A DNA stretch of 43,746 bases. It comes from Liquorilactobacillus mali (GTDB taxonomy: Bacteria; Bacillota; Bacilli; Lactobacillales; Lactobacillaceae). The stretch is from positions 1 through 43,746 of the forward strand of contig NZ_JQAR01000020.1 of the NCBI RefSeq assembly GCF_001437155.1, read 5' to 3'. A program made the position numbers and the translations under genes. Below the pieces are notes generated by a model, which worked only from the letters and a program-made list of their open reading frames with translations, did no database searches and had not been told where the DNA came from. Every line of letters starts with the position of its first letter. The first letter of the stretch is position 1. This document shows positions 4,302-43,478 of this stretch, piece after piece.

Positions 4302-4302
4302 G

Positions 4303-5005: not shown

Positions 5006-5039
5006 GCTTTAAAACTAATATAACACGGGAGTGATTTGT

Positions 5040-5798: not shown

Positions 5799-5869
5799 CC
5801 TTATGAAAAACTTACTGTGCATAGATCATGGATAGAAACAATGACTATGAAGCTCTTTTCCTTATATAA

Positions 5870-5918: not shown

Positions 5919-5979
5919 ATTATTCCCTTATTTGCAAGACTATCCATCTCTTGACAGATAGCTCCTAAAAAAACAGAAA

Positions 5980-6585: not shown

Positions 6586-6637
6586 TAAAAATTCTCCTGA
6601 CATGAATTGATTTGTTATCTTTTATATAACATCTTTA

Positions 6638-6666
6638 ATTGTAATTAACTTTTTCTTACTTGTCAA
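6638..6666 (-). promoter_or_regulatory. Promoter of the nitroreductase gene
   Basis: Minus strand TTGACA (6661-6666), 17-base spacer, TACAAT (6638-6643): near consensus. An inverted repeat AAAAGTC/GACTTTT (6679-6702) lies directly upstream of the -35 box and could bind a regulator. Confidence 0.7.
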
Positions 6667-6763
6667 TACTTACTTTTTAAAAGTCTAACTTTCTTGACTT
6701 TTTGCATGTCTCATTACATTTTGCTATGCTTTATGAATACTATCTTGAAAGTTGGTAACACTC

Positions 6764-8741: not shown

Positions 8742-8795
8742 AAAAATAATTTGCTGACTAGCCTGGTAACTATAGTCAGCAAATTATTTTTTCAT
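8738..8795. terminator. Bidirectional terminator whose stem holds both convergent stop codons
   Basis: A perfect 23-base inverted repeat (arms 8738-8760 and 8773-8795) with a 12-base loop. The stop of the ydbT-like gene (8739-8741) and that of the minus-strand reductase (8792-8794) both lie in the stem. The A/T-rich outer arms give T-runs on both strands. Confidence 0.9.
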
Positions 8796-9478: not shown

Positions 9479-9480
9479 TT

Positions 9481-10524: not shown

Positions 10525-10575
10525 TTTTTTACCGCCTTCTCCAATTATATTCTTATTTTTTGTAAGTATATTAAG

Positions 10576-10604
10576 ATACTAGTATTCATTTCTTTGAGTG
10601 TCAA
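10576..10604 (-). promoter_or_regulatory. Promoter of the LLM oxidoreductase operon with a palindrome on the -10 box
   Basis: Minus strand TTGACA (10599-10604), 17-base spacer, TAGTAT (10576-10581). The -10 lies within the perfect palindrome ATACTAGTAT (10576-10585), a possible repressor site. Confidence 0.6.
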
Positions 10605-10713
10605 GAAATATAATTAATATCTCAAATCCTCCCTTATCTTAATGCTAGCTTAACAAAAAGCACTATTATTCATTAACTATTATTCATAGTTTTTTCAAAC
10701 TTGGACCCTATAC

Positions 10714-10837
10714 TATAATCATAGTCTTGATACAAAACATCCCGCTCCCCCAAAACGGAGATGCTATAGACTACTAAAATTCGTTTTTTCTCTACTCCCT
10801 TTCTCCGTGGTTAACCCCAAGACCACGGAGTTTTTTT
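10714..10837 (+). ncRNA. Candidate small RNA A with a CUCCCCC hairpin loop and its own terminator
   Basis: The 591-base gap between divergent genes holds a plausible independent transcript. A consensus -10 TATAAT (10714-10719) lies 16 bases from TTTTCA, giving a start near 10726. The hairpin CATC-CCG (10738-10744) / CGG-a-GATG (10756-10763) exposes the loop CTCCCCCAAAA. A CU-rich single-stranded stretch follows at 10789-10806. The terminator CTCCGTGGT/ACCACGGAG (10803-10830) ends in seven T residues. No open frame with a ribosome binding site is present. Bases 10838-11047 show nothing further. Two other gaps hold similar elements (32032 and 41908). Confidence 0.55.
10803..10837 (+). terminator. 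Intrinsic terminator of candidate small RNA A
   Basis: Perfect 9-base stem CTCCGTGGT (10803-10811) and ACCACGGAG (10822-10830) followed by TTTTTTT. No plus-strand coding gene precedes it, which is the main evidence for a non-coding transcript here. Confidence 0.85.
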
Positions 10838-11047
10838 GTGTAATAAATAGCTGCCGACTGTTGAAAAAATTAATTACAAAAACTCAAAAGCTTAATTCAT
10901 TCGCCAGTTAATTGATTTCAATAACATTGTATCGTCATATATCTTTTTTACCCAATAGATACATCTCATGAGAAACCAAATTAAATAAAATTTAAATACA
11001 AATAAAATTTACAATAAAATAATTATTGGTAATTAAAGTAAAAGTTG

Positions 11048-11076
11048 TTGCTTTTTTTATCACATGTTGTTATAGT
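11048..11076 (+). promoter_or_regulatory. Promoter of the FMN reductase gene
   Basis: TTGCTT (11048-11053), 17-base spacer, TATAGT (11071-11076), 39 bases before the start codon. Confidence 0.5.
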
Positions 11077-11115
11077 TACTGTGTCAAGAACATAAAAAAT
11101 AAGGAGTGATTTTTA

Positions 11116-11670
11116 ATGACTAAAACAGTTGGTCTAATCGTTGGTAGTTTAAGAAAGGGTTCTTTTACTAGAGCTGTTGCTGAACAAATGGCTGCACAAT
11201 TGCCTGAGGGATTTGAAGTTAAAAACATTGATATTAGTAAGCTTGATTTGTACAATCAGGACTTGGATGATGAAGATAGAGTTCCTGCAAGCTGGACTGA
11301 ATTCCGTGAGGCAATGAAAACCGTTGATGCAGTGATTTTTGCAACACCTGAATTTAACCGTTCTGTTCCTGGAGCATTAAAAAATGCACTCGATGTTGGT
11401 TCACGTCCTTACGGAGCAAGTGTCTGGGACAAAAAGCCAGCAATTATTCTGAGCGTCTCACCAGGTGCAATTAGTGGCTTTGGTGCTAACCATCACCTTC
11501 GTCAATCATTGGTATTTCTCAACATGCCTACTATCCAACAACCTGAACTATATATTGGTAATGTCACAGAACTACTTGATGATGATTTGAAAATTACCAA
11601 TGAAGGAACTATCAAGTTTCTTGGCAGTGCGATGGTTACCTTTGCTGATTTCATTAATCGTCTGTCTTAA
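11116..11670 (+). CDS. NADPH-dependent FMN reductase
   Basis: Flavodoxin-fold enzyme of 184 residues that reduces FMN, quinones or azo compounds with NAD(P)H in the cytoplasm. The N-terminal FMN phosphate-binding loop GSLRKGSFTRAVAEQ (about residues 10-24) and the PEFNRSVPGALKNALDVGSR segment (about 77-96) are diagnostic of the family. The start has AAGGAGTGA upstream. It stands alone with its own promoter and terminator, divergent from the LLM oxidoreductase operon, to which it might supply reduced flavin. Confidence 0.93.
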   Translation: MTKTVGLIVGSLRKGSFTRAVAEQMAAQLPEGFEVKNIDISKLDLYNQDLDDEDRVPASWTEFREAMKTVDAVIFATPEFNRSVPGALKNALDVGSRPYGASVWDKKPAIILSVSPGAISGFGANHHLRQSLVFLNMPTIQQPELYIGNVTELLDDDLKITNEGTIKFLGSAMVTFADFINRLS

Positions 11671-11714
11671 AATTTTTCAATTAATCTTATATATTCAAGC
11701 AAGCAGATATAGAT

Positions 11715-11749
11715 CTGGCGGGTCGCTCATTACTGACTGCCAGTTTTTT
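11715..11749 (+). terminator. Terminator after the FMN reductase gene
   Basis: Stem CTGGC.GTC / GAC.GCCAG (11715-11743) followed by a run of six T. Confidence 0.75.
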
Positions 11750-11861
11750 ATTTGCTTTTTTAAATTTGTTATTTTTAAATGTCTTAATTCATTCTCAATA
11801 ACCCACTTTATTAATTCTAAAGGAGCTATAAACCTAAGTTCAGTGTAGTAATGCTCTTTCC

Positions 11862-11890
11862 TTGATTGTGAATAAGTTTCAATATAAAAT
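11862..11890 (+). promoter_or_regulatory. Promoter of dps
   Basis: TTGATT (11862-11867), 17-base spacer, TAAAAT (11885-11890). I see no clear PerR box (TTATAAT-N-ATTATAA) beside it. Confidence 0.45.
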
Positions 11891-11928
11891 TAGGCTGTAT
11901 CACAAATAATGAAGGGTGGTAATCAAGA

Positions 11929-12405
11929 ATGACGAAAACAATTGATTCTTCCAAAACACAATTGCAGTTAAACCAGCTATTAGCAGATTTGACTCAATTG
12001 CAAAATAATATTCAACAGACCCACTGGTATATGCGTGGTAAGAATTTCTTTCATCTGCATCCACTGATGGATGATTATAAAGATCAGTTGGGTGAACAAC
12101 TTGATGAGCTCGCTGAAAGACTTATCGCATTGGGCGGAAGTCCTTATGCTACGGTCAAAGAGTTTATTTCTAATACGGGTTTGCCAGATGAAAAAATCGA
12201 ATTCGATCAGTTTACCTTGCCGGAATTAATGAGCAGATTGTTAGATGAGTTTAAATATTTGCGTGATCAGTACCAAATCGGGATAGAGGTTACTGATGAA
12301 GAGAAGGATTTCCCAACTCAAGATATTCTAAATGGGTATAAGAGTGACATCGATAAAATAATTTGGATGATTAGTGCTTACTTAGACGAAAGTCCTACTG
12401 ATTAG
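11929..12405 (+). CDS. dps: Dps/ferritin-like DNA-protection protein
   Basis: 158 residues, the usual Dps length. It forms dodecamers that oxidise and store iron at subunit interfaces and shield DNA from peroxide. The ferroxidase ligands are visible: the His in NIQQTHWYMRG (about residue 31), the HLHPLMDDYKDQLGEQLDELAERL helix (about 44-67) with Asp and Glu ligands, and the IALGGSPYAT turn after it. GAAGGGTGG precedes the ATG. Monocistronic with its own promoter and terminator. Fits an aerotolerant, peroxide-producing lactic acid bacterium. Confidence 0.93.
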   Translation: MTKTIDSSKTQLQLNQLLADLTQLQNNIQQTHWYMRGKNFFHLHPLMDDYKDQLGEQLDELAERLIALGGSPYATVKEFISNTGLPDEKIEFDQFTLPELMSRLLDEFKYLRDQYQIGIEVTDEEKDFPTQDILNGYKSDIDKIIWMISAYLDESPTD

Positions 12406-12420
12406 CATCGACTAAAGAAT

Positions 12421-12478
12421 AAAAAAGTAGCACCTTAAAGTGATCTTTTAATGGGACACTTTGATGGGTTACTTTTTT
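12421..12478 (+). terminator. Terminator after dps
   Basis: Outer stem AAAAAAGTA (12421-12429) / TACTTTTTT (12470-12478) and inner AAAGTG/CACTTT, ending in a T-run. Confidence 0.8.
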
Positions 12479-12601
12479 ATTTTTTTGTTTTGTAATTATT
12501 CTAATTTAATTTGATTTGAGCTATAATGGCCTTGAATAAACGGCGTTATCTTTTCTATTGTAAGTTTTGATACTGTTCCCAATTATTTTTGGAGGTGCCT
12601 T

Positions 12602-13369
12602 ATGAAAGTTGCAATTTTTTCAACATGTGTCGTCGACCTGCTCTTTCCCAATGTTGGACAAGCGATGGTCGAAGTACTAGAAAGACTCGGTTGTGAAACT
12701 TCCTTGCCAACTAATCAGGTTTGCTGTGGTCAACCTACATATAACAGTGGCTACCATAAAGAAAGCAACAAAGTTTTTTACAACGAGATTGATGCATTAC
12801 TATCTACCGATGCTGATTATATCGTTGGTCCAGCAGGGTCTTGTGTTGCGATGCTACGTCAGTATCCGCACATTCTAAAAGATAATCCTGACTACTCCAA
12901 AAAGGCACAAGAATTGGCTGATAAAAGTTATGAGTTCTCACAATTTGTTTATAATATTTTAGGGGTTGTTGATGCAGGGGCACAACTTAATGCAGTTGCA
13001 ACTTATCACCGCTCTTGCCACATGACTCGGCTGCTTGGTGAAAAGACTGCTCCTTTTGCTTTACTGGACAATGTTAAAGACTTAAAAATGGTTCCACTCC
13101 CTCATCTTGAGAATTGTTGCGGCTTTGGTGGAACTTTCTCCGTTAAGGAACCAGAAATCTCAAAACAAATGGTTGATGAAAAAGTAGACTCAATTATCAG
13201 TACGGGTGCACAAGTTTTAATTAGTGCCGACGCATCCTGCTTGATGAATATTGGTGGCCGTTTCAGTCGCCGAAATGAGAATATCAAAATTATGCATATT
13301 GCAGAGGTACTCAATCATAATGTAGATGCTAGTCGTATCCGGTACAAAAATCAGCCAACTACTGTTTAG
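12602..13369 (+). CDS. lutA: L-lactate utilisation protein LutA (CCG-domain Fe-S oxidoreductase)
   Basis: Part of the LutABC iron-sulfur complex that oxidises L-lactate to pyruvate. 255 residues with two cysteine-rich CCG domains. The first ends in QVCCGQPTYNSGY (about residues 39-51); the second carries YHRSCHM, NCCGFGGTF (about residues 175-183) and ADASCLMN. The start CVVDLLFPNVGQAMVEVLERLGC is the family hallmark. GGAGG precedes the ATG, and a TATAAT box sits at 12522-12527. lutB starts 12 bases downstream, so lutABC is one operon. The electron acceptor of Lut complexes is not firmly known; the menaquinone genes at 27-32 kb make a quinone plausible. Confidence 0.95.
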   Translation: MKVAIFSTCVVDLLFPNVGQAMVEVLERLGCETSLPTNQVCCGQPTYNSGYHKESNKVFYNEIDALLSTDADYIVGPAGSCVAMLRQYPHILKDNPDYSKKAQELADKSYEFSQFVYNILGVVDAGAQLNAVATYHRSCHMTRLLGEKTAPFALLDNVKDLKMVPLPHLENCCGFGGTFSVKEPEISKQMVDEKVDSIISTGAQVLISADASCLMNIGGRFSRRNENIKIMHIAEVLNHNVDASRIRYKNQPTTV

Positions 13370-13381
13370 AAGGAGGCAATT

Positions 13382-14860
13382 ATGACAATATCAACTAGTG
13401 ATAAACCCTTTTTAACGCGCGTCAAAGAATCTGAAAATGATCACTTTATGCAGCAATCTGTTGCAAAAGCACAAGATGCACAATGGGACAAAAGAACTGC
13501 TGCTCGAGAAGAACTCGGCAATTGGGAACAATGGCGCGATTTAGGTGAACAAATTCGACAGCACGTTATTAAATACCTACCCGACTACCTAGAACAATTT
13601 AGTGATAATGTTGAGAAAAAGGGCGGTCATGTTTTCTTTGCTCAAACTGATGAACAGGCCGTAAATTATATCAAAAAAATTGCAAAAGAGAAAAAAGCAC
13701 ATAGAATCGTAAAATCAAAATCAATGGTTACAACTGAAATTAATCTTGATAAAGCATTATTGTCACTCCCAGAAACTTCGTTAATGGAAACAGATCTTGC
13801 AGAATTCATTTTGCAAGAAGACAATTGGGATGAACCAACACATATTGTTTTTCCTACCCTGCATAAAAATCGTGATCAAATCCAAAAAGTTTTTAATAAG
13901 CTTGGTTACTCAGGCAGCAACGACCCTGAGGAAATGGCTAAATTTGCACGAAAATATCTTCGCGAATATTTTATGCAAGCCGATTTAGGAATTACTGGTT
14001 GTAATTTTGCCATTGCCGATAATGGCATGATTAATCTGGTAACTAATGAAGGAAATGCTGATTTAACAATGGCTATCCCAAAGACACAAATTGTTGTCAT
14101 GGGAATGGAAAGAATCGTACCAAGTCTTAAGGAGGCAGAAGTCCTAGATAATATGTTATCTAGAAGCGCCGTTGGTCAAAAATTGACCAGCTATTGTTCA
14201 TTCAGTGGCCCACAAGTTAGTGGTGAAAGCGATGGACCTACTGACTTTCATGTTGTTATTTTGGATAATGGTCGATCAAATGCTCTTGGAACAGATTTTG
14301 AGCCAGTTTTGCAATGTATTCGTTGTGGTGCTTGCTTAAATGTCTGCCCAATTTATCGTCATATTGGTGGACATGGCTATGGTTCGATTTATCCTGGCCC
14401 CATCGGAGCTGTCTTATCCCCAGTACTTGATGGTTATGAAAAATTTGGTGATTTACCATTTGCTTCAAGTCTTTGTGCCGCTTGTACCGAGACGTGTCCT
14501 GTGAGAATTCCTTTACATCAATTACTTATCAAACATCGTAAGGTTATGATGGATAAATTAAAGATGGATCACAGCTTTAATAATGTTTTGATGAAGGGTG
14601 CTGGAGTTGCCACAAGCTCCCCAATTCTCTTCAAAATTGCCTTGGAAGGTGCCCATATGGGATCAGCACCTTTGTCTAAGAGTAAAGAAACTTCAGTTGA
14701 TAATCTGTTCAACTATGGTCATATTGAGAAAGCACCTTCACTTGCCTCCGGTTGGACTGATGTTCGCGACTTGGCAAGGCCCCCAAAGCATTCTGATGAT
14801 TTCAGAAGTTGGTATAAGAAACATAAAAAAGAACAGCAAGAAGGTGCTTCACATGACTAA
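13382..14860 (+). CDS. lutB: L-lactate utilisation protein LutB (ferredoxin-like)
   Basis: 492 residues. The N-terminal LUD-type domain contains the ITGCNFAIADNGMINLVTNEGN stretch (about residues 201-222). A C-terminal 4Fe-4S ferredoxin region holds Cys312, 315, 318 and 322 (CIRCGACLNVCP) and a second cluster at Cys365, 368 and 372 (CAACTETCP). This subunit relays electrons during L-lactate oxidation. AGGAGG precedes the ATG. It overlaps lutC by 8 bases, so expression is coupled. Confidence 0.95.
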   Translation: MTISTSDKPFLTRVKESENDHFMQQSVAKAQDAQWDKRTAAREELGNWEQWRDLGEQIRQHVIKYLPDYLEQFSDNVEKKGGHVFFAQTDEQAVNYIKKIAKEKKAHRIVKSKSMVTTEINLDKALLSLPETSLMETDLAEFILQEDNWDEPTHIVFPTLHKNRDQIQKVFNKLGYSGSNDPEEMAKFARKYLREYFMQADLGITGCNFAIADNGMINLVTNEGNADLTMAIPKTQIVVMGMERIVPSLKEAEVLDNMLSRSAVGQKLTSYCSFSGPQVSGESDGPTDFHVVILDNGRSNALGTDFEPVLQCIRCGACLNVCPIYRHIGGHGYGSIYPGPIGAVLSPVLDGYEKFGDLPFASSLCAACTETCPVRIPLHQLLIKHRKVMMDKLKMDHSFNNVLMKGAGVATSSPILFKIALEGAHMGSAPLSKSKETSVDNLFNYGHIEKAPSLASGWTDVRDLARPPKHSDDFRSWYKKHKKEQQEGASHD

Positions 14861-15557
14861 TTCAAATCGCGAAGTCTTTCTTGATAAAATCGCAACTAAG
14901 GCTGGTAGGACTAGGCATCAGTTGAAAAATCATCCCTTCGTTCCTATCAATGATTTACCGGAATCAACCTTAGCTGGTAAGTCCCAAGATGAATTGCTTG
15001 AACTTGCGCAAAAAAATAGTGAAGCAGTCCATGTTACTTTTGAGAAAACTAATAGAATCTCACTTTCGACTCTGTTAAACGATTTTTTGAGTGCGAAGGA
15101 TATTAACAATTTAATACTGCCTACCTGTGATAAATGGGCTGCTTTTGGGTTATCTGATTGGGAAAATAAACTTGCAGATTCTGCAGAATTCTGGACACCT
15201 GAGAGTTCACGTACGGAAAATCTCGCTAAGGTAAATGCCGCAGATGGAGCAATTGGATTTGCTGATTATTTACTAGCTGAGTCCGGTACAATCACAGTCG
15301 CTACTACTCCTGGGCAGGGGCGTGGTTTCCATTTCTTACCCACTCACTATCTCAGCATTATTCCTAAAAGCCATATCTTATCCCGAAGCAGGCAAGCTAT
15401 GCACAAGTATGAAGCAGCCATCGCCTCTGGTAAATTAACAACTTCGAATATTAACTTTATTACCGGGCCATCAAATTCTGGTGATATCGAAATGGTCCTG
15501 GTAGTTGGTGTCCATGGCCCACTTGATATGACCTATGTTGTTGTTGAAGATTTATAA
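14853..15557 (+). CDS. lutC: L-lactate utilisation protein LutC (LUD domain)
   Basis: Third subunit of the lactate oxidation complex, 234 residues of LUD domain. The DYLLAESGTITVATTPGQGRG segment and the C-terminal ITGPSNSGDIEMVLVVGVHGP motif are diagnostic. The frame is open much further upstream, inside lutB, but the true start is ATG 14853 with AAGGTG before it and an 8-base overlap with the lutB stop. It ends 50 bases before a strong terminator, closing the operon. Together with the lactate racemase at 21-26 kb, both lactate isomers could be used. Confidence 0.95.
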   Translation: MTNSNREVFLDKIATKAGRTRHQLKNHPFVPINDLPESTLAGKSQDELLELAQKNSEAVHVTFEKTNRISLSTLLNDFLSAKDINNLILPTCDKWAAFGLSDWENKLADSAEFWTPESSRTENLAKVNAADGAIGFADYLLAESGTITVATTPGQGRGFHFLPTHYLSIIPKSHILSRSRQAMHKYEAAIASGKLTTSNINFITGPSNSGDIEMVLVVGVHGPLDMTYVVVEDL

Positions 15558-15607
15558 CTAAAATTATTCGAAGCTGCAAATTTTATGATATGTATTATAA
15601 AGTCAAT

Positions 15608-15648
15608 AAAAGGACTGGTTCAAAATTTAAATTCTGAACCAGCCTTTT
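15608..15648 (+). terminator. Terminator of lutABC, member 2 of the repeated hairpin family
   Basis: Arms AAAAGGaCTGGTTCA and TGAACCAGcCTTTTT around AAATTTAAATTC. The core CTGG.TCAAAA is shared with the terminators at 17419 and 33303. Confidence 0.85.
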
Positions 15649-15829
15649 TGCTGATTTTAAATAACTGTTGTTCTACGTTTAAAATTCTCCCTAACCATAT
15701 TTCATACTCCAATTTTTTTATAGCGACTCTATTTTATTTTTCACGTGAAACCTTGCAGAACCATAACTATTTAGCACATCAATAATTGGTCCCATCCAAT
15801 TTTTTTTTTAGTATCTTCGTATAGAATTA

Positions 15830-15890
15830 TTGACCTCAACCTTTTTTTGGATTACTCTCTATTTGTAAGTTGTTTATGAACTAATTAGTT
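15830..15890 (+). promoter_or_regulatory. Promoter of the aldehyde dehydrogenase gene with a downstream palindrome
   Basis: TTGACC (15830-15835), 17-base spacer, TACTCT (15853-15858). The perfect 12-base palindrome AACTAATTAGTT (15879-15890) lies just after the predicted start and could be an operator. The rest of the 420-base gap (15558-15979) holds only the lut terminator and A/T-rich sequence. Confidence 0.45.
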
Positions 15891-15979
15891 TATGACAATT
15901 TTTATGGTCACGTTTTCAATTTTTTGGAAATTTTTTCCATAACACTTCATGAATCAATAATCTAGAGGAGGAAACAAAA

Positions 15980-17383
15980 TTGGCTTACAAAACTATTAAC
16001 CCATATACAAATGAATTAATCAAAGAATTTCCAAATGCAACTGATGCTCAAATTGAAGAGGCACTTACAACAACCCATAGTCTTTATCGTACATGGAAAA
16101 AAGAAAATGTCGCTGATCGTGCGCAAAAATTGCATGATGTTGCACAAACATTTCGTGATAATTCAGAAGAACTTGCAAAAGTATTAGTTACAGAAATGGG
16201 AAAATTAATTAATGAAGCACGTGGTGAAGTTGAATTATGTGCCATGATTGCTGACTATTTTGCTGATAATAGTGCAGCTATGTTATCACCTGTTCCATTA
16301 AAGACAACTGCTGGTAACGCGCGCATTGAAAAAGAATCAGTTGGTGTTTTAATGATGGTTGAACCATGGAATTTCCCATACTATCAGATCATGCGTGTCT
16401 ATGCACCTAATTATATGGTTGGCAATCCCATGATTTTAAAACATTCTTCAAACACACCTTGGGCTGGAGCCATTTTCCAAGAAATGATCGAAAAAGCTGG
16501 TGCTCCAAAGGGCAGTTTGATTAATCTCTTTTTAACACATGATCAGGTTGATAAAGTTATTGCTGATAGCCGCATTCAAGGCGTTGCCTTAACAGGTTCT
16601 GAGCGTGGTGGTAGTTCGGTTGCGCAAACTGCCGGTAAATACTTGAAGAAGTCTTCGATGGAACTTGGTGGCAACGATGCCTTTATAGTTCTTGAAGATG
16701 CCAACATTGACGAAGTTATCACAGTTGCAAATCGTGCACGTACTTACAATGCAGGACAAGTATGTACATCATCAAAACGCTTCATCGTTGCTGACAAATT
16801 ATATGATGAATTTTTGGAGCGCTTGGCTGATAATTATAAAAAATTTGTACCTGGAGACCCAATGGATGAGAAGACGACCCTTGCCCCTTTATCATCTGCT
16901 AAAGCAAAGCAAACACTGCAAAAGCAACTGGATGATGCTCTTGCTGCTGGTGCAAAATTATACTTTGGCAATACGCCAATTGATCTCCCAGGACAATTTT
17001 TCCAACCTTCGATTATCACAGATGTTACTCCTGATAATCCTGCATACTACGAAGAAATGTTTGGTCCAGTTGCACAAGTTTATCGTGCTTCTAGCGAGCA
17101 AGAAGCAATTGATATTGCTAATGACTCGCACTATGGCTTAGGTGGGATTGTATTCGCTGGTGACAGTAAACACGGTGAAGAAGTCGCACAACAAATCGAT
17201 ACAGGAATGGTTTTCGTCAATACATTCTTGTACACATTACCTGAAATTCCGTTTGGCGGGGTCAAACGTTCTGGATATGGTCGTGAAATGAGCAGTTTGG
17301 GATTGAACGCATTTGTGAATGATAAATTAATTGTTTCAGTTGAGAAACCTAACTTAGATAACTTAGGCGGAGCTTTATTCTAA
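15980..17383 (+). CDS. NAD(P)-dependent aldehyde dehydrogenase, succinate-semialdehyde dehydrogenase type
   Basis: 467 residues. Oxidises an aldehyde, probably succinate semialdehyde, to its acid. The start is TTG 15980 with AGGAGG 8 bases upstream. Visible elements are VEPWNFPYYQ (about 127-136), the base Glu228 in MELGGNDAF, the catalytic Cys262 in NAGQVCTSSKR, and the C-terminal PEIPFGGVKRSGYGREMS. The length fits the short Sad/GabD-like branch. It is monocistronic with a strong terminator and has no GABA transaminase beside it, so the exact substrate is open. Confidence 0.88.
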   Translation: MAYKTINPYTNELIKEFPNATDAQIEEALTTTHSLYRTWKKENVADRAQKLHDVAQTFRDNSEELAKVLVTEMGKLINEARGEVELCAMIADYFADNSAAMLSPVPLKTTAGNARIEKESVGVLMMVEPWNFPYYQIMRVYAPNYMVGNPMILKHSSNTPWAGAIFQEMIEKAGAPKGSLINLFLTHDQVDKVIADSRIQGVALTGSERGGSSVAQTAGKYLKKSSMELGGNDAFIVLEDANIDEVITVANRARTYNAGQVCTSSKRFIVADKLYDEFLERLADNYKKFVPGDPMDEKTTLAPLSSAKAKQTLQKQLDDALAAGAKLYFGNTPIDLPGQFFQPSIITDVTPDNPAYYEEMFGPVAQVYRASSEQEAIDIANDSHYGLGGIVFAGDSKHGEEVAQQIDTGMVFVNTFLYTLPEIPFGGVKRSGYGREMSSLGLNAFVNDKLIVSVEKPNLDNLGGALF

Positions 17384-33999: not shown

Positions 34000-34017
34000 C
34001 TAATTATTGTAAATTAG
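34000..34017. terminator. Weak hairpin between doxX and aroK
   Basis: Short stem CTAATT (34000-34005) / AATTAG (34012-34017), with the aroK stop inside it. Possibly a weak terminator for the aromatic operon. Confidence 0.3.
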
Positions 34018-34517
34018 TTTACTGATAAATACTTGTAAATTTGTTCAGTAATTTCTAGTGGTGAATGATTATCTGTGTTTATACACAAATTAGCGCATTT
34101 TTGATAAAAGGGCATTCTTTTAAACTGCAGCTCCGCTAATTGTTCTACTGACATTTGATTTACAAGTGGTCTTTCTTTGCTCTTACCCACTCGTTCTAAA
34201 ATCGTATTTGTTGAGGCTTCTAGCAGTATCACAGGTGCCTTTGTTGCTTGTAGTATTTCTAAGTTTTGCATACTAATTGGAGTTCCTCCACCTGTTGAGA
34301 GGACTCCATTTTTTTTCAATTGATTCAATAAGATTTGGTGTTCTAATTCACGAAATTTTTTCTCACCATAGTTTGAGAAAAATTCTGGTATTGTTTGTCC
34401 AGCATTTTCAACAATTTCTTGATCTAGGTCTGTGTGTGGCACCAATAAAGTCTTAGCTAGCATCCTTCCTATTGTTGTCTTCCCACTTCCCATAAAACCA
34501 ATCAAGATAGCATCCAT
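34014..34517 (-). CDS. aroK: Shikimate kinase
   Basis: Phosphorylates shikimate at the 3-hydroxyl with ATP. 167 residues. The Walker A loop GFMGSGKTT spans 7-15; the shikimate-binding DLDQEIVENAG (about 32-42) and the GGGTPIS turn follow, then the lid KERPLV. Last gene of the aromatic operon; 3 bases separate it from the tyrA stop, with AAGGGGG inside the tyrA end. Confidence 0.95.
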   Translation of the reverse strand: MDAILIGFMGSGKTTIGRMLAKTLLVPHTDLDQEIVENAGQTIPEFFSNYGEKKFRELEHQILLNQLKKNGVLSTGGGTPISMQNLEILQATKAPVILLEASTNTILERVGKSKERPLVNQMSVEQLAELQFKRMPFYQKCANLCINTDNHSPLEITEQIYKYLSVN

Positions 34518-34520: not shown

Positions 34521-35621
34521 CTATTCCCCCTTAACAATCTGGTATCCCTGACTCGAAAGTATTCTTTTTGCTTTCTCATAATCAATTTCTTTCATAAACG
34601 TCAGCTGTAAAATACCATCAATTTCTTCTCGGATCTCTAAAATCTGCAAATTAACTAAATTAATTTTATTGCATGCTAACAACTGCGTTACTCTTGCAAT
34701 TGCACCAACTTTATCTGGTATGTTAACAAATAAATCATAGAAATCTGGTAAGATATATTTTTTTTGGTTACTCAATTTATCACGACTATTCTTAGCTTGA
34801 AAGAATAAATTATAAAGATTTTCTTGGTTGCCATTTTTTAAATCATCTTGGACTTCAGAAAGCTGCTGCTGGTACTTTGCTAATTGAGTCGTGAGTATCG
34901 TTGTATTCGTTTTTAAAATCGCACTCCACATGTCTGGATCAGAAGAAGCAATTCTAGTAATTGATTTAAAGCCCCCGGCTGCCATCTTCATCCCCAATGG
35001 AGAATCTGCAAATTCATCTTGCGTTCGGTTTACCAAAGTTGCTGCAATGATATGCGGTAAATGGCTGATTTGTCCCACTAATTTGTCATGTGTGCTGGCA
35101 TCTACTTCAAACCACTTAACATTTGTTTCTTGCAACAATAACTGTAGCTTTTCTATCTGCTTATCTTTTGCCTTTGGTGCGACCAAAAAATAGAACGCAT
35201 TCTCAAATAAATCGGCTCTTCCAGCCGTAACACCAGTTTTATGCGATCCAGCCATTGGATGACCACCAATAAAAGTTACATTTGGTTGAATCAACTCTTT
35301 AGCCGCTTTTAAAACTGTTTGTTTTGTACTTCCCACATCTGTAACGATTGCATCCTTTTTTAACTGCATTTTGCTTAGTTCATGCAATGTAGTGACAATT
35401 TGATCCACGGGAGTTGCTAAAATAATAATATCGGCTGTTTTTACGGCCGCCAAATTTCCCGCAGCTCTATCAATTATTTTATTTGCAATTGCATAGTCCA
35501 ACGTATCTTTATCTTTATCAGCCGCAGTTATCACTATTTCTTCATTCTTTTTTTTAATTGCTCGTGCAAGTGAACTACCAATTAAGCCGAGCCCATTGAT
35601 AAAAACTTCCGTCGTACTCAT
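34521..35621 (-). CDS. tyrA: Prephenate dehydrogenase with C-terminal ACT domain
   Basis: Oxidative decarboxylation of prephenate to 4-hydroxyphenylpyruvate, the tyrosine branch. 366 residues. The N-terminal Rossmann motif INGLGLIGSSLARAI (8-22) binds NAD. VTDVGSTKQTVLKAA and FIGGHPMAGSHKTGVTAG carry the catalytic His and substrate-binding residues. The ACT domain, from about residue 293 (FVNIPDKVGAIARVTQLL), probably senses tyrosine. Prephenate comes from the chorismate mutase domain at the operon head. Ribosome binding site AAGGAG lies in the aroA end. Confidence 0.95.
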   Translation of the reverse strand: MSTTEVFINGLGLIGSSLARAIKKKNEEIVITAADKDKDTLDYAIANKIIDRAAGNLAAVKTADIIILATPVDQIVTTLHELSKMQLKKDAIVTDVGSTKQTVLKAAKELIQPNVTFIGGHPMAGSHKTGVTAGRADLFENAFYFLVAPKAKDKQIEKLQLLLQETNVKWFEVDASTHDKLVGQISHLPHIIAATLVNRTQDEFADSPLGMKMAAGGFKSITRIASSDPDMWSAILKTNTTILTTQLAKYQQQLSEVQDDLKNGNQENLYNLFFQAKNSRDKLSNQKKYILPDFYDLFVNIPDKVGAIARVTQLLACNKINLVNLQILEIREEIDGILQLTFMKEIDYEKAKRILSSQGYQIVKGE

Positions 35622-35625: not shown

Positions 35626-36930
35626 TCAACTCCTTCTCAATAGAGATTTTAAATCTGTAAAAAAAGATGGATATGAAACTGCAATAGCTGCAGCATCATT
35701 AAGATACAACTCCTGGTCTGTTCGCAAAGCAGCAACTGCCAGCATCATACCAATACGGTGATCTCCATGACTATTCAGTTCATTTGTATTTATTTTCCAG
35801 TTTTTTCTTCCATGAATTATCATTCCATCTGATAATTCAGTAATCAATACCCCCAATTTACCTAATTCTTGGGTGACCGTTGCAATACGATCCGTTTCTT
35901 TTACACGTAATTCAGCCGCTCCTCTTATTTCACTTACCCCATCGGCACACGCTGCCAGTAAGGCCACAAGTGGTAACTCGTCAATCAATGCTGGAATATC
36001 GTTTTCTGTTATTCTAATTGGGGTCAGATTACTTGTGCTAATCTCAATATCTCCATAACACTCATCTGTGTTTTCCTTGTAAACAACTTTGAAATTTGCT
36101 CCCATTCGTTTTAAAACTTTTAAAATACCAGTTCTCGTCGGATTCAAACTGACATTTTTCAAAAGTACTTTTGAATTGGGCACAATTGCCGCGGCCACTA
36201 AAAAAAACGCAGCCGATGATATATCTCCGGGAACATTGACTACTTGTCCCCTTAAATTATTGATAGGTTTTATGTTGATCGTTTTTTGATCACTTTCAGT
36301 TGTGAGATCTGCTCCAAATTTACGCAGCATGAGTTCAGTATGATTTCTCGTTGGCAACTTTTCAATTACTGTCGTTGGGTTATCGGCTTGCAATGCAGCA
36401 AAAATAACAGCACTTTTGACTTGTGCACTGGCTACCTGTAACTGTATATCAATTCCGTGAATTTTACTCCCCTTAATGACCGCTGGGAGAGTTCCAAGCT
36501 TTGTTGTTTCAATTTTGGCACCCATTTTAGAAAGTGGAACAGCAACTCTGTTCATCGGCCTTTTGGATAGAGATTCGTCTCCCCTCAAATTGCTAGTGAA
36601 GTTCGTGCCCGCAAGTAACCCCATTAGCAGTCTAGTTGTAGTTCCCGAATTTCCCATTTCAAGTGGTTGTTCAGGAGCCTTGAAGCCCCCAAATCCCACT
36701 CCATGTACAATTACTTGTGTTGTACTTTCTTCAATTGCCACTCCTAATTGCCGAAGTGCATCTAAAGTGCTGCGGCAATCCTGTGACCATAAAAAATGAT
36801 TAATGATTGTCTGTCCTTCACTTATTGCACCTATCATCAATGCTCTGTGTGAAATGCTTTTATCTCCAGGAACATCAATCGTTCCATGTAGTCCCCCCGT
36901 ACGAAAGGCATCTAACTTAATTTTTTCCAT
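35626..36930 (-). CDS. aroA: 3-Phosphoshikimate 1-carboxyvinyltransferase (EPSP synthase)
   Basis: Joins shikimate-3-phosphate and phosphoenolpyruvate. 434 residues. VPGDKSISHRALMIGAIS (about 20-37), MGNSGTTTRLLMGLLAG (about 91-107) and LRGDESLSKRPMNRV are the standard EPSP synthase motifs, and KETDRI marks the C-terminal half. The loop has Gly after GNS as in most bacterial enzymes. Eight bases follow the preceding gene, with AAGGAG in that gene's last codons. Confidence 0.96.
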   Translation of the reverse strand: MEKIKLDAFRTGGLHGTIDVPGDKSISHRALMIGAISEGQTIINHFLWSQDCRSTLDALRQLGVAIEESTTQVIVHGVGFGGFKAPEQPLEMGNSGTTTRLLMGLLAGTNFTSNLRGDESLSKRPMNRVAVPLSKMGAKIETTKLGTLPAVIKGSKIHGIDIQLQVASAQVKSAVIFAALQADNPTTVIEKLPTRNHTELMLRKFGADLTTESDQKTINIKPINNLRGQVVNVPGDISSAAFFLVAAAIVPNSKVLLKNVSLNPTRTGILKVLKRMGANFKVVYKENTDECYGDIEISTSNLTPIRITENDIPALIDELPLVALLAACADGVSEIRGAAELRVKETDRIATVTQELGKLGVLITELSDGMIIHGRKNWKINTNELNSHGDHRIGMMLAVAALRTDQELYLNDAAAIAVSYPSFFTDLKSLLRRS

Positions 36931-36938: not shown

Positions 36939-37472
36939 CTACTCCTTAATAATCTGATATACTACCCAAACCATCTGTGGACTGAATTTTTTTAAAATAA
37001 TTTCATTTTCTCTTAAATGAATATTTTTAGTATTAGTAAGTACATATTGTCCATCTTCTAAATACTCTTGATAGGCAAGGTACTTGCTCTTTGCACATCT
37101 TATTTCAGCAGGTTCAACAACCTGTCTCAATAAATCGGCTAATGCAGCGTGAGTATAGGCTATCCCGCTATTGCATCTGCTATTTTTCAGCAATACAAGT
37201 GGTGATATTTCAAATATGAAACTTGTAATTAATTTTAAACGTTCAATATTGCGATAGTGGAAGTCTCCCCAGTCAACACCTAATTCTTTAGACTTAAAAG
37301 CCGCGGGAATCACAATATATTCGCCTTGATATTTTGACATTTGGGCTATTATTTTTTCAAAACTCGTATGCAGCTCAATTTCAACACTTTGATTCATTAG
37401 ATGTTGGTTAACATAATATTTTGTTGCCGCATAGCTATCAGTTTGTTTTGGGCCAAGCGTGTGTATTCGCAA
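36939..37472 (-). CDS. Prephenate dehydratase-like protein without ACT domain, BacA-like
   Basis: 177 residues; start TTG 37472 with GAGGAGG 6 bases away. It aligns by eye to the prephenate-dehydratase fold: IHTLGPKQTDSYAA at the start, LHTSFEKIIAQ, EYIVIPAAF, then IAYTHAALADLL and EDGQYVLTN. The Thr-Arg-Phe catalytic motif of true dehydratases and the C-terminal ACT domain are missing. Length and pattern resemble BacA of Bacillus (about 204 residues), a non-aromatising prephenate decarboxylase of bacilysin synthesis. It sits where pheA would be expected, between aroC and aroA. It could be a divergent dehydratase for phenylalanine, a decarboxylase, or a non-catalytic partner; sequence alone does not decide. 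Confidence 0.65.
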   Translation of the reverse strand: MRIHTLGPKQTDSYAATKYYVNQHLMNQSVEIELHTSFEKIIAQMSKYQGEYIVIPAAFKSKELGVDWGDFHYRNIERLKLITSFIFEISPLVLLKNSRCNSGIAYTHAALADLLRQVVEPAEIRCAKSKYLAYQEYLEDGQYVLTNTKNIHLRENEIILKKFSPQMVWVVYQIIKE

Positions 37473-37494: not shown

Positions 37495-38661
37495 TTAAAA
37501 CTCTCGAACTTCTTTCCGATAATCAGCAATTTGCTTTTTTAAACGCTCAATATTGCTTCCCTCAAAAGTAGCTAGGATTTCCTTAGCTAATTCAATTGCA
37601 ACCACACTCTCGATGACAATTGAAGCTGGTACGATTGCCGTTGTATCGGAGCGCTCAACGTTAGCCTTTTGTTGCAGATGTGTCTCGACATTAACGGTTT
37701 GTAGTGCCTTGTATAAGGTTGGTATTGGCTTCATTGCAGCAAAGACCACCACAGGCATTCCATTAGTCATTCCACCTTCAAATCCTCCCAAGTTATCGCT
37801 TGTTCGTGTAAATCCTGCATCTTGGTCCCAATCAATCGGATCCATAACCTGACTCCCAAATTGACCAGCAACTTCAAATCCGTCTCCAATAGAAACACCC
37901 TTCATTGCATTTACTCCCATAACTGCTGCTGCTAATTTTGCATCCAACTTAGTGTTCCATCCTGTGTAACTTCCTAATCCCGCAGGTAAATTATTCACAA
38001 CTACCCTAATAATTCCTCCAAGAGTATCGCCATTCTTTTTAGTCCTATCTATCAATTCATGAATTTCAGCTACTTTTTGATTATCAATAATTCGTAAGTC
38101 GTTTTGTAAAATCTTCTCCATAATTTCTGCCGAGTCAGTTGGACGTCCTCCTAAAGCTTTAACTGATCCAATCTGCTCTACGTACCCAACAATACCGATA
38201 TCCAATTGATTCAAAAGCTGCTTACAAATTGCACCTATTGCTACACGCATTGCCGTCTCTCGTGCAGAAGATCGCTCTAAAACATTACGTAAGTCACGGT
38301 GTCCATACTTCATCCCACCAATTAAATCTGCATGTCCTGGACGTGGTCTTGTAACTTTTCTTAGTGTATTTTGTTCTGTCTCAACACTAATTGGATCCAT
38401 AATTTTAGACCAATGAGCATGGTCAATATTATTAATCATCAATGCAATTGGTGAGCCTAGAGTTTTTTGATGGCGTACACCACCTACAATTTGAATAGTA
38501 TCATGCTCGATTTTTTGACGATTTCCTCTTCCGTAACCACCTTGTCTAGCCGATAATTGCTGATTAATCTGATCTATATCAAGTACCACTCCTGCTGGAA
38601 ACCCTTCTAGTATCCCTGTTAATTGTGGGCCATGTGATTCACCAGCTGTTAGATAATTCAT
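37495..38661 (-). CDS. aroC: Chorismate synthase
   Basis: Makes chorismate from EPSP using reduced FMN. 388 residues. Signature motifs are AGESHGPQLTGILEG (6-20), RQGGYGRGNRQKIEHD (about 39-54), RPRPGHADLIGGMKYGHRDLRNVLERSSARETAMRVA (about 106-142, cited in part) and DNLGGFEGGMTNGMPVV. AAGGAGG precedes the ATG, 15 bases after the MFS-chorismate mutase gene, whose mutase domain uses its product. Confidence 0.97.
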   Translation of the reverse strand: MNYLTAGESHGPQLTGILEGFPAGVVLDIDQINQQLSARQGGYGRGNRQKIEHDTIQIVGGVRHQKTLGSPIALMINNIDHAHWSKIMDPISVETEQNTLRKVTRPRPGHADLIGGMKYGHRDLRNVLERSSARETAMRVAIGAICKQLLNQLDIGIVGYVEQIGSVKALGGRPTDSAEIMEKILQNDLRIIDNQKVAEIHELIDRTKKNGDTLGGIIRVVVNNLPAGLGSYTGWNTKLDAKLAAAVMGVNAMKGVSIGDGFEVAGQFGSQVMDPIDWDQDAGFTRTSDNLGGFEGGMTNGMPVVVFAAMKPIPTLYKALQTVNVETHLQQKANVERSDTTAIVPASIVIESVVAIELAKEILATFEGSNIERLKKQIADYRKEVREF

Positions 38662-38676: not shown

Positions 38677-40128
38677 TTAGTTTGTTAAATCATCTTTCTC
38701 GAAGTCCTCTGCCTCATATGTTCGTGAGTTCTTCATAATATGCCGATAGACATCTTGCAAGTATGGTGTCAAGTTCTCATTTGAACTCTGTACTGAAATT
38801 CTATTAAGCACTGCTTCCTCACGTTTTTCATCTAAAAATGCTTGCTGATTGAAAAATTTTATTTTTCCAACTACTTTAACTTCTTTAAAACGATATTCAA
38901 GTAACTTAATTACCAAATAATCAATTAACGTAATCTTTTTCCTAGCCTGTTCGAGATTAGTCTCAGATCCTAAAAACATACGGGCACCCACAGAAAGCAC
39001 GAGGCCCACCAATGCAATCAACAAATCAAATTCCAATACTGACCTAATACTGTTCTTTGAAAGCCATCCAGTAATTAACGGAATTGAAAAAGATGCTAGA
39101 CTACCAAAGGTAAAGAAAACTCCGGTAATTAGGCCTTTATGCTTTGAGAATACTTTCAAGAATAGATTTAATCCTGTCTGCATAATGCCGCCTGCAGCAC
39201 TCATTCCGAACACCAAAGATGCAATACTAATCAGTAAACTATTATTGGTAAAATTAACCACTAACAGACTTATTAGGCTCAATGCATTTAACGAAATTAA
39301 AAGTATCGTTTCAGAAATATGCTTTCGCAACAGTAAGAAAACGATAACAACTCCTGTAATTGAACCTATACTGTATAGAGAAAGCAACAAATGTGCCTGC
39401 AAATTGCTAAAGTGCAGCTGTTTTTCAGCATATAAGCTAATCCATTGTGTGTATAGAATCATCAGAGCCATCGAACTGTACCCGTAAAGAGAGAGTACAA
39501 CCGCTAAACCCTTTCTCCGCCAAGCTGGGAGATGAGCAAATAATTGCTGTTGAGTTTCTTGATTAAGATTTTTCTCTGGAAATTTCACTGGAAACAAAAT
39601 TATTGCATTCAAAACTAAGATAATAGCAGCAAGTACAAAAGACCAGCCAAACCATAATTTGTTGACCTCTAGAAAAGAGACACCTAAAGGCAAGATAAAT
39701 TCTCCTGCTGACATAAAAGCTTTAATCAAAATATTTGAAGCTCCATTATTGGTACCCATTTCAATAAATACAGGGTACGTCCCTGAATCAAGTGCTGAGT
39801 TGGCAATTCCTGCCAAAATTGCCAACAGATATGCGGACATCACGTCTTTAACTAGCAACATCCCGATAAAGAAAATAAAGTAACTACCAATTCCGATATA
39901 AATAAAACTCTTTCTTCCGTACCGATCAGCTAGACTACCAAGTAACAGGTACGCTGCTAGGCGCCCAATGCCAACACCAGAAATAACGTATGAAACAACT
40001 GCTAAGGGCTGGCCCCATAGTCTACCAAGTTCCTGCATGTTTTGGGCTAAGATTATCAAACCTATACCGTGAACAAAATAGTTAAGATATAACCCAACTG
40101 TTAGCCTCTTTCGTTTACTTGCCTCCAT
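38677..40128 (-). CDS. MFS transporter fused to an AroQ-class chorismate mutase
   Basis: 483 residues. Residues about 1-385 form a 12-helix major facilitator transporter with motif A GSLADRYGRKSF (about 64-75). Residues about 390-475 are a chorismate mutase. Aligned to the E. coli AroQ domain, the active site is complete: Arg396, Arg413, Lys424, Asp433, Arg436, Glu437, Ser468 and Glu472 match Arg11, Arg28, Lys39, Asp48, Arg51, Glu52, Ser84 and Gln88, with identical spacing up to Glu437. Glu in the last place also occurs in yeast mutase. An even helix number puts the mutase in the cytosol. ATG 40128 is chosen because the ATG at 40137 abuts AGGAGG. First gene of the aromatic operon, behind a Tyr/Phe leader. 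The transported molecule is unknown. Confidence 0.88.
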   Translation of the reverse strand: MEASKRKRLTVGLYLNYFVHGIGLIILAQNMQELGRLWGQPLAVVSYVISGVGIGRLAAYLLLGSLADRYGRKSFIYIGIGSYFIFFIGMLLVKDVMSAYLLAILAGIANSALDSGTYPVFIEMGTNNGASNILIKAFMSAGEFILPLGVSFLEVNKLWFGWSFVLAAIILVLNAIILFPVKFPEKNLNQETQQQLFAHLPAWRRKGLAVVLSLYGYSSMALMILYTQWISLYAEKQLHFSNLQAHLLLSLYSIGSITGVVIVFLLLRKHISETILLISLNALSLISLLVVNFTNNSLLISIASLVFGMSAAGGIMQTGLNLFLKVFSKHKGLITGVFFTFGSLASFSIPLITGWLSKNSIRSVLEFDLLIALVGLVLSVGARMFLGSETNLEQARKKITLIDYLVIKLLEYRFKEVKVVGKIKFFNQQAFLDEKREEAVLNRISVQSSNENLTPYLQDVYRHIMKNSRTYEAEDFEKDDLTN

Positions 40129-40160
40129 AATGTTCATCCTCCTTTGTAATAAAAAACTAA

Positions 40161-40325
40161 AATAAAAAACCAGCTAGATTTTTTTATCTAGCTGGTTTGC
40201 TTCAACCGATTATTCAACAAAGAATTCAGTCATATCACCAGCTAGACTACTACACGTCTAGCCGGCAAAAAATGACCTTGCGCACCCAGACACGGACGTC
40301 CCGTCCGTGCCACGAAACACGAACG
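40161..40325 (-). promoter_or_regulatory. Attenuator of the aromatic operon: competing hairpins and terminator
   Basis: On the minus strand, four near-complementary blocks follow the leader peptide: CCGGCTAGAC (40256-40265), GTCTAGCTGG (40238-40247), CCAGCTAGAT (40186-40195) and ATCTAGCTGG (40170-40179), then a T-rich tract (40161-40169). Blocks 3 and 4 form a terminator. Blocks 2 and 3 can pair instead and prevent it, and blocks 1 and 2 can pair and free it. Upstream, CGTTCGTG (40318-40325, touching the leader stop), CACGGACG (40302-40309) and CGTCCGTG (40291-40298) form a second set of exclusive stems. How the two sets connect is not clear to me. Confidence 0.75.
40168..40197 (-). terminator. 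Intrinsic terminator in the aromatic operon leader
   Basis: AACCAGCTAGAT / ATCTAGCTGGTT with an A-rich loop, followed on the minus strand by TTTTTTATT. It lies about 30 bases before the ribosome binding site of the first structural gene, where only a conditional terminator makes sense. Confidence 0.88.
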
Positions 40326-40385
40326 TTACCTAAAGTAAGCAAAGCCATAATAATATGAACTTGAGAGTTTCGTATGAATACACAT
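40326..40385 (-). CDS. Tyr/Phe-rich leader peptide of the aromatic operon
   Basis: A 19-residue frame, MCIHTKLSSSYYYGFAYFR, starting at ATG 40385 with AAAGGATC upstream and ending TAA. Six of 19 residues are Tyr or Phe, clustered just before the stop, including three Tyr in a row. It lies between the promoter and an attenuator that precedes chorismate, tyrosine and prephenate genes. This is the arrangement of ribosome-stalling leader peptides such as pheL and trpL of enteric bacteria. No T-box core (AGGGUGGNACCGCG) is visible. Scarcity of charged tRNA-Tyr or tRNA-Phe would stall the ribosome and change the downstream folding; that is inference. Confidence 0.8.
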   Translation of the reverse strand: MCIHTKLSSSYYYGFAYFR

Positions 40386-42125: not shown

Positions 42126-43478
42126 CTAGTAACTACTAATCTGACTTTCGGTATTAACATTTACGATGTATGCACCCTTATTGAGTTTGGCAAGCATCGC
42201 GATTAAAACTGATCTCGGTACCGAAACACACCCCGCTGTCGAACCACCAGTTGAGACATGTACGAAAAAGCCGGAACCAGCACCCTTTACAACAGGATTA
42301 GTATTATAATTAATGACTATCCCATACTCATATTGCGTTGGATAACTCAGTAAATGCTCACTTGGAGCCTTAGCATAGCTTCTTTCTTGCCATGTATTAT
42401 AAGCTGAATCGTTTACATCCTCAATCCAATAAGAGCGACTATCTGATTGTCGATAGGATAGACCAGTACTTACACTCGCATGGCTTCCAAATGCCGTGCC
42501 AAGTGTGTACGCTCCTTGAGGAGTCTTTCCAGCCCCTTCATACGTCTTCCCTAGCCCGTTATACCCAACGTGCCCAGCAGACGTAGCTATTACTTGAGAC
42601 CATATTCCATTTGTATCTTTTTGATAAAGATATACATTTGCTGTCTTCTTATAGTTGGCAACAGTAACAATTGTTTGCTTCGTTTTTTGTGCGAAATTTG
42701 CTTCAGCTAATTGCAAGGAAATATTTGAAATACTTAAAGCTCCGCTTGCGGTGTTTAATGAATAAGTGATCCCATTGATTTTTTGGCGACCATACAACAT
42801 TTGCCCAGCGGCATTATAGTAAACAATTTTATTCTGATTTTTGATTAATTGAAAACCTGTCTTCATTGCCCCAGTTGCTGAGTCAAAGTAATACCACTTG
42901 CCGTTAATATGTTGCTGTCCATATTGTAACTGTCCATTTGCAGCATAGTAGACCGTTTTGCGTTGGTTTTGAATATATTTAAAACCTGTCGTAACTGCAC
43001 CTGTGTTATCATTTAGATAGTACCACTTGCCACCAATATACTGTTGTCCATACAGCATTTTACCATTTGCTGCATAGTAGACTGTCTTTTTCTGAGCAGC
43101 TATATACTTCCATCCAGTTACAACACCACCTGTATTATCATCAAAATAATACCATGAACCATTGATATGTTGCTGCCCATACAGCATTTTACCATCTGTA
43201 GCATAATAGACAGTCTTTTTCTGAGCAGCTATATACTTCCATCCAGTTACAACATTGCCGGTACTATCATCAAAGTAATACCATGAACCATTGATATATT
43301 TTTGACCACGCAATGAATGATCTTTATTAAGTTGTTGTGTTACAGCAACATTAACTGAAGAGGAGCTACTTGCCTTTACAGTTGTTGTACAATTCAAGAC
43401 AAAAAAACCAAAAAGAAAAAAAGACATATAAATTAAACCGCTCAACAACCTATCCCAGCATTTCCCTTTATTCTTCAA
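42126..43478 (-). CDS. Secreted L,D-transpeptidase (YkuD) with cell-wall-binding repeats
   Basis: 450 residues. Start TTG 43478 with GAGGATGA upstream. A signal peptide (about 1-36; basic start, hydrophobic core, cleavage near VKA) directs secretion. Residues about 57-245 contain five tandem repeats of about 43 residues of the glucan/choline-binding type (GQ..INGSWYYFD...TG.V.TGWKYI), which should hold the enzyme on the wall. The C-terminal YkuD domain carries GKTPQGAYTLG (about 317-327) and the catalytic HVSTGGSTAGC with His407 and Cys417. It would make 3-3 peptidoglycan cross-links or attach wall proteins. LNC at residues 28-30 does not make a convincing lipobox. It stands alone with its own terminator. 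Confidence 0.92.
   Translation of the reverse strand: MKNKGKCWDRLLSGLIYMSFFLFGFFVLNCTTTVKASSSSSVNVAVTQQLNKDHSLRGQKYINGSWYYFDDSTGNVVTGWKYIAAQKKTVYYATDGKMLYGQQHINGSWYYFDDNTGGVVTGWKYIAAQKKTVYYAANGKMLYGQQYIGGKWYYLNDNTGAVTTGFKYIQNQRKTVYYAANGQLQYGQQHINGKWYYFDSATGAMKTGFQLIKNQNKIVYYNAAGQMLYGRQKINGITYSLNTASGALSISNISLQLAEANFAQKTKQTIVTVANYKKTANVYLYQKDTNGIWSQVIATSAGHVGYNGLGKTYEGAGKTPQGAYTLGTAFGSHASVSTGLSYRQSDSRSYWIEDVNDSAYNTWQERSYAKAPSEHLLSYPTQYEYGIVINYNTNPVVKGAGSGFFVHVSTGGSTAGCVSVPRSVLIAMLAKLNKGAYIVNVNTESQISSY
43073..43084. other. Withdrawn placeholder: internal repeat region of the L,D-transpeptidase
   Basis: Short internal part of the tandem repeat region. Within the gene, the stretches around 43080-43130 and 43209-43260 are almost identical at the DNA level with a 129-base period, as expected from recent repeat duplication. 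Confidence 0.5.

Follow-up and report, generated by a model that had tools for sequence, protein, structure and literature searches.

Which compound is carried by a membrane transporter that ends in a chorismate mutase, and what is the enzyme doing there? The question is raised by a gene on contig NZ_JQAR01000020.1 of Liquorilactobacillus mali (RefSeq assembly GCF_001437155.1), and the whole stretch of DNA analysed here, positions 1 to 43,746 (43,746 nucleotides), is referred to as the window. On its minus strand the gene encodes a YdiM/YdiN-like transporter of the major facilitator superfamily (MFS) with 12 transmembrane (TM) helices, joined to an AroQ-type chorismate mutase. Based on the genes around it and those unmatched in its genome, we propose that the fused protein is a putative shikimate importer heading a salvage operon, a reading to which we give a probability of roughly two in three (0.68).

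38677–40128, minus strand: MFS transporter fused to AroQ chorismate mutase; 483 amino acids from the ATG at 40128, 486 from the ATG at 40137
38974–40137, minus strand: 12-TM MFS part, YdiM/YdiN-like, with about 39% identity to E. coli ydiM; TM12 ends at residue 389
38713–38943, minus strand: AroQ-type chorismate mutase domain, CM_2, by Pfam and active site

The open reading frame (ORF), as called, covers 38677–40137 on the minus strand and encodes 486 amino acids from its first ATG, at 40137. Because the Shine-Dalgarno sequence AAAGGAGG directly abuts this codon, translation more plausibly starts at the second ATG, at 40128, the coordinate already given in the earlier note, and yields 483 amino acids; residue numbers for the fused protein are those of the 486-residue version. 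Pfam searches returned both MFS_1 (residues 16–351, 1e-28) and CM_2 (residues 399–475, 2.7e-12), the latter at 47.2 bits against a cut-off of 27, and the fusion that an earlier note on this DNA had read from the letters alone is therefore real, the profile check suggested there having borne it out. Across the whole genome CM_2 gave one match, the fused gene itself (51.4 bits), and the second chorismate mutase that the same note had considered was not found by this profile (AroH-type enzymes were not searched for). Against the NCBIfam model CM_mono_grmpos (TIGR01805) the protein scored 49.1 bits for a cut-off of 71.2, which places the fused mutase outside that one subfamily model. In the AlphaFold model the transporter part has the 12 TM helices of the MFS fold, followed by a 5-residue link to the mutase part, whose helices (395–429, 437–450, and 457–485) form the three-helix AroQ topology with moderate confidence (block means 57–81 over residues 391–480). 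When the complete model was used for a fold search, every match listed was an MFS protein, and the mutase part is neither supported nor tested thereby; searching PDB sequences with just the MFS part gave nothing at 0.001.

The mutase was then compared with 1ECM, whose active-site positions we take to be numbered R11 to Q88. R11, R28, K39, D48, R51, E52, and S84 correspond to R399, R416, K427, D436, R439, E440, and S471, all seven identical, and the Q88 position is occupied by E475. Presence of all eight positions, as previously claimed, was thus upheld, with one of them changed from Gln to Glu. In 34 fused proteins R28, K39, D48, R51, and E52 were each found in every one, R11 in 33 as aligned (the remaining row, L118, was trimmed there and has the Arg), and the Q88 position held Q in 29 and E in 5. 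S84 was present in 34/34 fused proteins versus 9/20 unfused mutase ORFs in the fetched loci, the fused site being the more uniform. Ratios of nonsynonymous to synonymous substitution (dN/dS) were 0.115, 0.152, and 0.179 for the mutase part (three of four comparisons computable, with dS of 0.9–2.4, near saturation) and 0.038 and 0.046 for the MFS part (two of four computable), which is the more constrained of the two. Chance similarity to a mutase was ruled out by the CM_2 score well above its cut-off, the intact site, and purifying selection, and a frameshift or assembly artefact by 33 fused rows from fetched loci together with a 475-residue gene on a complete Nicoliella plasmid. The mutase domain looks active, yet separable from the transporter.

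Downstream of the fused gene lie aroC, a dehydratase-like gene, aroA, tyrA, and aroK. Pfam assignments for four of these confirmed the earlier remark that the fused gene stands at the head of an operon for chorismate synthesis and use.

37495–38661, minus strand: aroC, chorismate synthase (Pfam Chorismate_synt, 372.6 bits)
36939–37472, minus strand: putative prephenate-dehydratase-fold protein without TRF motif, under the Pfam PDT cut-off
35626–36930, minus strand: aroA, 5-enolpyruvylshikimate 3-phosphate (EPSP) synthase (Pfam EPSP_synthase, 408.1 bits)
34521–35621, minus strand: tyrA, prephenate dehydrogenase (Pfam PDH_N, 132.4 bits; PDH_C, 85 bits)
34014–34517, minus strand: aroK, shikimate kinase (Pfam SKI, 149.2 bits)

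The pathway steps encoded here (aroK, aroA, aroC, mutase, and tyrA) all lie after shikimate. In the L. mali genome itself, rated 100% complete, no match was found for aroB (PF01761), type I 3-deoxy-d-arabino-heptulosonate 7-phosphate (DAHP) synthase (PF00793), or aroE (PF08501), type II DAHP synthase and the archaeal-type route not being among the searches; all three match strongly in seven relatives of the same genus bearing the fused gene. With only post-shikimate steps in the operon and no match for these three early genes in the genome, import of shikimate is the reading that suggests itself; since aroE is unmatched, shikimate, by way of aroK, is the one compound that could feed the pathway. 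A cell that cannot make its own shikimate would import it via the fused transporter and make tyrosine and other aromatics from it. This agrees with the earlier proposal that the cargo is a shikimate-pathway metabolite.

Linkage between the transporter and loss of early genes was followed in further genomes. In a panel of 80, aroB was matched in 34, DAHP synthase in 36, and aroE in 65; 14 were without all three, and 13 of these have the transporter (G030 does not). All three were likewise unmatched in G190, an assembly of 3 contigs whose fused operon (L200) is without the dehydratase-like gene. As a control, 80 family genomes without the transporter (E 1e-50) were searched: aroC was present in 22, and aroB in 22 of these 22. 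Where the transporter was seen together with aroC in the fetched locus or window, aroB was present in 13/39 genomes and absent from 26/39 (Fisher p 7.3e-8); for all transporter-positive genomes, aroC being unchecked in the rest, aroB was present in 46/96 (34/79, two fragmentary, plus 12/17; p 1.2e-6). Both p values ignore kinship, and panel and control genomes were chosen by hand and not at random. Among the genomes sampled, those that kept aroC but had lost aroB all had the transporter. Gene neighbourhoods point the same way, 103/113 transporter-family genes having same-strand aro genes at a distance of at most 4.5 kb and many paralogues of the transporter lying in aroE/aroD clusters. In L. 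cacaonum (L038), the operon no longer has tyrA or the dehydratase-like gene, and what is left of the mutase is interrupted by stops, with the intact transporter adjoining aroC-aroA-aroK; the G121 locus L098 consists of transporter-aroC-aroA-aroK only. Since both keep the transporter with the late genes and without tyrA or an intact mutase, the transporter follows the late shikimate genes.

The survey of architectures across Lactobacillaceae that had been suggested earlier was also carried out. CM_2 was present in 191/397 sampled family genomes, and transporter and mutase shared one open frame in at least 57/397, from 12 of 40 genera (counted by eye: 50 with an open frame of at least 429 amino acids among the matches listed, plus 7 others). 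In a class sample of 398 genomes, 11 matched the query at E 1e-50, and only the L. mali genome and G727 matched over the mutase too; Sporolactobacillus vineae also has the fusion (L053). An order sample of 246 genomes contained 47 with a match, and outside the family all were unfused among the matches listed. In a tree of 113 transporter rows, the operon transporters formed one clade of 68 rows (SH-aLRT, the Shimodaira-Hasegawa-like approximate likelihood ratio test, 100) that stands apart from most aroE/aroD-linked paralogues; this tree was quick, used no mixture model, has long branches that meet, and holds no named E. coli rows. Six duplicate loci (L110, L111, L112, L116, L117, and L124) were left out of this tree and of the neighbourhood, leader-peptide, and active-site counts. 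The fused state changed about 10 times on this tree, at least 6 of them on starred branches, and a single-origin fusion never lost was ruled out by these forced changes. Unfused transporter–mutase pairs lie close together: of the 16 rows listed, 14 (two of them duplicates) show a spacing between −14 and +12 bp, and the others show −52 and +165. Given this alternation and closeness, we conclude that the join is easily gained and lost and required by neither function; a regulatory or assembly role for the fusion is possible.

In other genera of the family, the mutase was observed at the C terminus of shikimate kinase instead, in proteins of about 266 amino acids; in L191 this gene is followed by the transporter gene.

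L191, 4110–4910: shikimate kinase–mutase fusion (same gene in L203)
L192, 3729–4532: shikimate kinase–mutase fusion
L193, 4079–4879: shikimate kinase–mutase fusion

On a 344-kb plasmid of Nicoliella spurrieriana (L205, NZ_CP093360.1), shikimate dehydrogenase, aroD, the fused gene, aroC, aroA, prephenate dehydrogenase, and shikimate kinase occur together, the fused gene being annotated merely as an MFS transporter.

Two features upstream of the fused gene bear on its expression.

40326–40385, minus strand: Tyr/Phe-rich leader peptide MCIHTKLSSSYYYGFAYFR, with Shine-Dalgarno, upstream of the fused gene
40167–40198, minus strand: intrinsic terminator hairpin (segments E and F), just upstream of the fused gene

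Such a leader peptide was found in 54/65 upstream regions of the operon clade versus 0/20 paralogue regions (background, 3.9%); a strict threshold of 6/10 aromatic residues missed 25/65 of the operon-clade regions. The leader RNA forms six helices in two mutually exclusive sets, a terminator and an antiterminator, and paired cells amounted to 96.0% for the terminator fold and 94.4% for the antiterminator, against 25–42% in slid controls. For the terminator set, pairs with changes on both sides exceeded shuffles, as did both-side cells; for the antiterminator set, cells with both-side changes and the covariation score were above shuffles (0/500), but the number of both-side-change pairs was not (149/500). 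An RNA model, R1, matched 63/95 sources at E ≤ 0.01, of which 16 match by construction, as R1 was built from them. An Rfam gathering scan of the window gave no match, and the scores of RF01743 (18.8 for a cut-off of 70) and RF04312 (28.7 for 59) were below threshold. On this evidence the leader RNA is a conserved candidate Tyr/Phe attenuator, one that would switch the operon on when Tyr or Phe is scarce, and it adds a candidate of this kind in Gram-positive bacteria. At L141, L143, and L144 the leader RNA precedes an upstream aroE instead. Transporters of the same clade at L100, L106, L113, L134, and L140 have no aro neighbours in the fetched stretch; that the Tyr/Phe leader RNA is present there all the same points to a regulon that may reach further. 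The T-box genes named in the available excerpt of PMC2494555 are others than those of this operon.

Beyond the pair count and the make-up of R1, several points weigh against shikimate import. As aroB occurs in those 46 of 96 transporter-positive genomes, the transporter is not solely a salvage device, and the E 1e-50 threshold takes in genomes with paralogues only. Many aroB-negative genomes keep aroE (found in 65/80 of the panel), and in them the cargo could be quinate or dehydroshikimate. Sporolactobacillus THM19-2 (L056) has the transporter without a mutase and keeps tyrA, so mutase loss is not always tied to tyrA loss. To judge by E. coli mutants, the protein's own E475 in place of Q88 may leave the mutase less active at neutral pH. 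A search of the open-access literature found no report of shikimate transport by the YdiM family, and PMC10588857 (PLoS One 2023), in the portion available, describes E. coli ΔydiM as slower in taking up copper, with bo3 oxidase lost, and lists YdiM as a putative isoprenol exporter.

These points bear on other explanations of the locus. A transporter whose main cargo is not shikimate but a related carbocyclic acid, be it quinate, dehydroshikimate, or several such acids, would suit the paralogues that adjoin aroE and aroD, and also L130, L138, and L139, where aroE and aroD lie between transporter and mutase or aroC; we nevertheless regard it as quite unlikely, given that the genome without an aroE match admits only shikimate through aroK and that 13 transporter-bearing panel genomes are without aroB, DAHP synthase, and aroE together. 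Export of an aromatic overflow product or a prephenate derivative supplied by the mutase, a version of which the earlier note had raised, appears very improbable. The MFS fold leaves direction undetermined, and both the position at the operon start and the Tyr/Phe-linked leader would be in keeping with an exporter, but the leader should activate the operon under Tyr/Phe scarcity, the wrong moment for export; L038 and L098 retain the transporter with neither an intact mutase nor tyrA in the operon, and with the early genes unmatched there is no own shikimate to export.

The mutase might instead act on top of import, sensing chorismate or dimerizing the transporter so that import is matched to downstream need. 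AroQ enzymes are dimers, the modelled link after TM12 is just 5 residues long, and the fused site is the more uniform at S84; set against the common adjacent unfused pairs and the turnover of the fused state, by which the fusion is dispensable, such coupling seems unlikely, if less so than a different cargo. Nor was support found for the earlier idea that the mutase pulls the cargo towards prephenate: with shikimate as cargo the mutase would come fourth in the sequence of steps, relatives switch between the fused and the unfused state, and L038 and L098 have the transporter beside aroC-aroA-aroK without an intact mutase; probably the mutase does not drive transport. A transporter of copper or another metal, linked to the pathway for another reason, is considered for YdiM in the available text of PMC10588857, where E. 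coli ΔydiM takes up copper more slowly; loss of bo3 oxidase (ΔcyoB) itself lowered copper uptake in that study, and gene neighbourhood and pathway losses here track shikimate, leaving this explanation barely credible.

Shikimate import can also be joined with the other observations into a broader proposal, which we put forward tentatively: many lactobacilli would be obligate scavengers of plant shikimate via this transporter, the mutase dimer would couple two importers, with the chorismate level tuning import, and a Tyr/Phe leader attenuator outside Rfam would set operon expression. If this were true, the orphan YdiM/YdiN transporters would gain a cargo. Genomes with the shikimate-to-tyrosine genes and the early genes unmatched make YdiM/YdiN cargo directly testable.

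The 177-residue product of the neighbouring gene at 36939–37472 was found to have the prephenate dehydratase (PDT) fold and scored 15 bits against a Pfam PDT cut-off of 25.2; a PDB profile search gave 4 matches taken for chance (best E, 0.093). The TRF motif, which we take to be the catalytic motif of prephenate dehydratase, was present in 0/17 dehydratase-like proteins and in 6/6 canonical PDTs fetched, and PDT above the Pfam cut-off was found in 6/80 panel genomes and not in the L. mali genome. The protein has no room for an ACT domain and is shared by many of these operons; it may act as a divergent dehydratase, as a BacA-like decarboxylase, or as a sensor. Beyond residue 273 of TyrA no Pfam match was found at E 1e-5, the region being ACT-like by eye only. 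Elsewhere in the window, 42126–43478 encodes choline-binding repeats and a C-terminal part that is L,D-transpeptidase-like by eye, with no Pfam match there. In the close relatives L090 and L091, LysR-like, aroE, MFS, aroD, and MFS genes lie between glycerol kinase-like and aldehyde dehydrogenase-like genes; at the corresponding place the window (3426–15980) holds other genes, and the cluster varies between close strains or species.

Comparison with known systems helps to place the locus. Ribosome-mediated attenuators with leader peptides are familiar from trp and phe. Like these and leu-phe_leader (RF01743), the present leader combines a peptide rich in the regulated amino acids with alternative hairpins and a terminator; it differs in its six helices in two exclusive sets and in scoring far below the Rfam cut-offs. 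The P-protein (1ECM) and DAHP synthase fusions (5j6f and 3nvt) share the AroQ domain and active site, but there the mutase partner is a pathway enzyme and not a membrane transporter. E. coli YdiM is alike in sequence over the MFS part (record annotated ydiM) and in having shikimate genes as neighbours; the gene order in the E. coli record is ydiM-ydiN-ydiB-aroD, and YdiM and YdiN differ from the fused protein in having no mutase and in adjoining ydiB and aroD, as the available text of PMC10588857 also describes, rather than aroK-aroA-aroC-tyrA. According to that text, about 75% of YdiM/YdiN homologues adjoin shikimate genes and YdiM orthologues carry a fused chorismate mutase "in a handful of cases", the cargo being left open; one such fusion, from Fructobacillus durionis, is depicted as an AlphaFold model. 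These Firmicutes fusions (Fig. 6D, 7C-D of that paper) have the same architecture, a YdiM-like MFS part plus mutase beside shikimate genes, and the view in the earlier note that no fusion with a 12-helix transporter was known is superseded by them. The architecture is thus already published. To the excerpted account are added the fusion's occurrence in at least 57 of 397 family genomes, the linkage to early-gene loss, mutase decay where the transporter persists, and the leader RNA, and with them a candidate cargo, shikimate, and a conserved candidate attenuator. Lastly, the late gene set of this operon is shared with the shikimate salvage variant 'As' (AroK, AroA, and AroC only), which in the available part of PMC9026213 is predicted to use shikimate in 11 Lactobacillus strains and for which no importer is named there; the fused protein is a candidate, and shikimate import, if true, would name the missing importer for this salvage variant predicted in lactobacilli.
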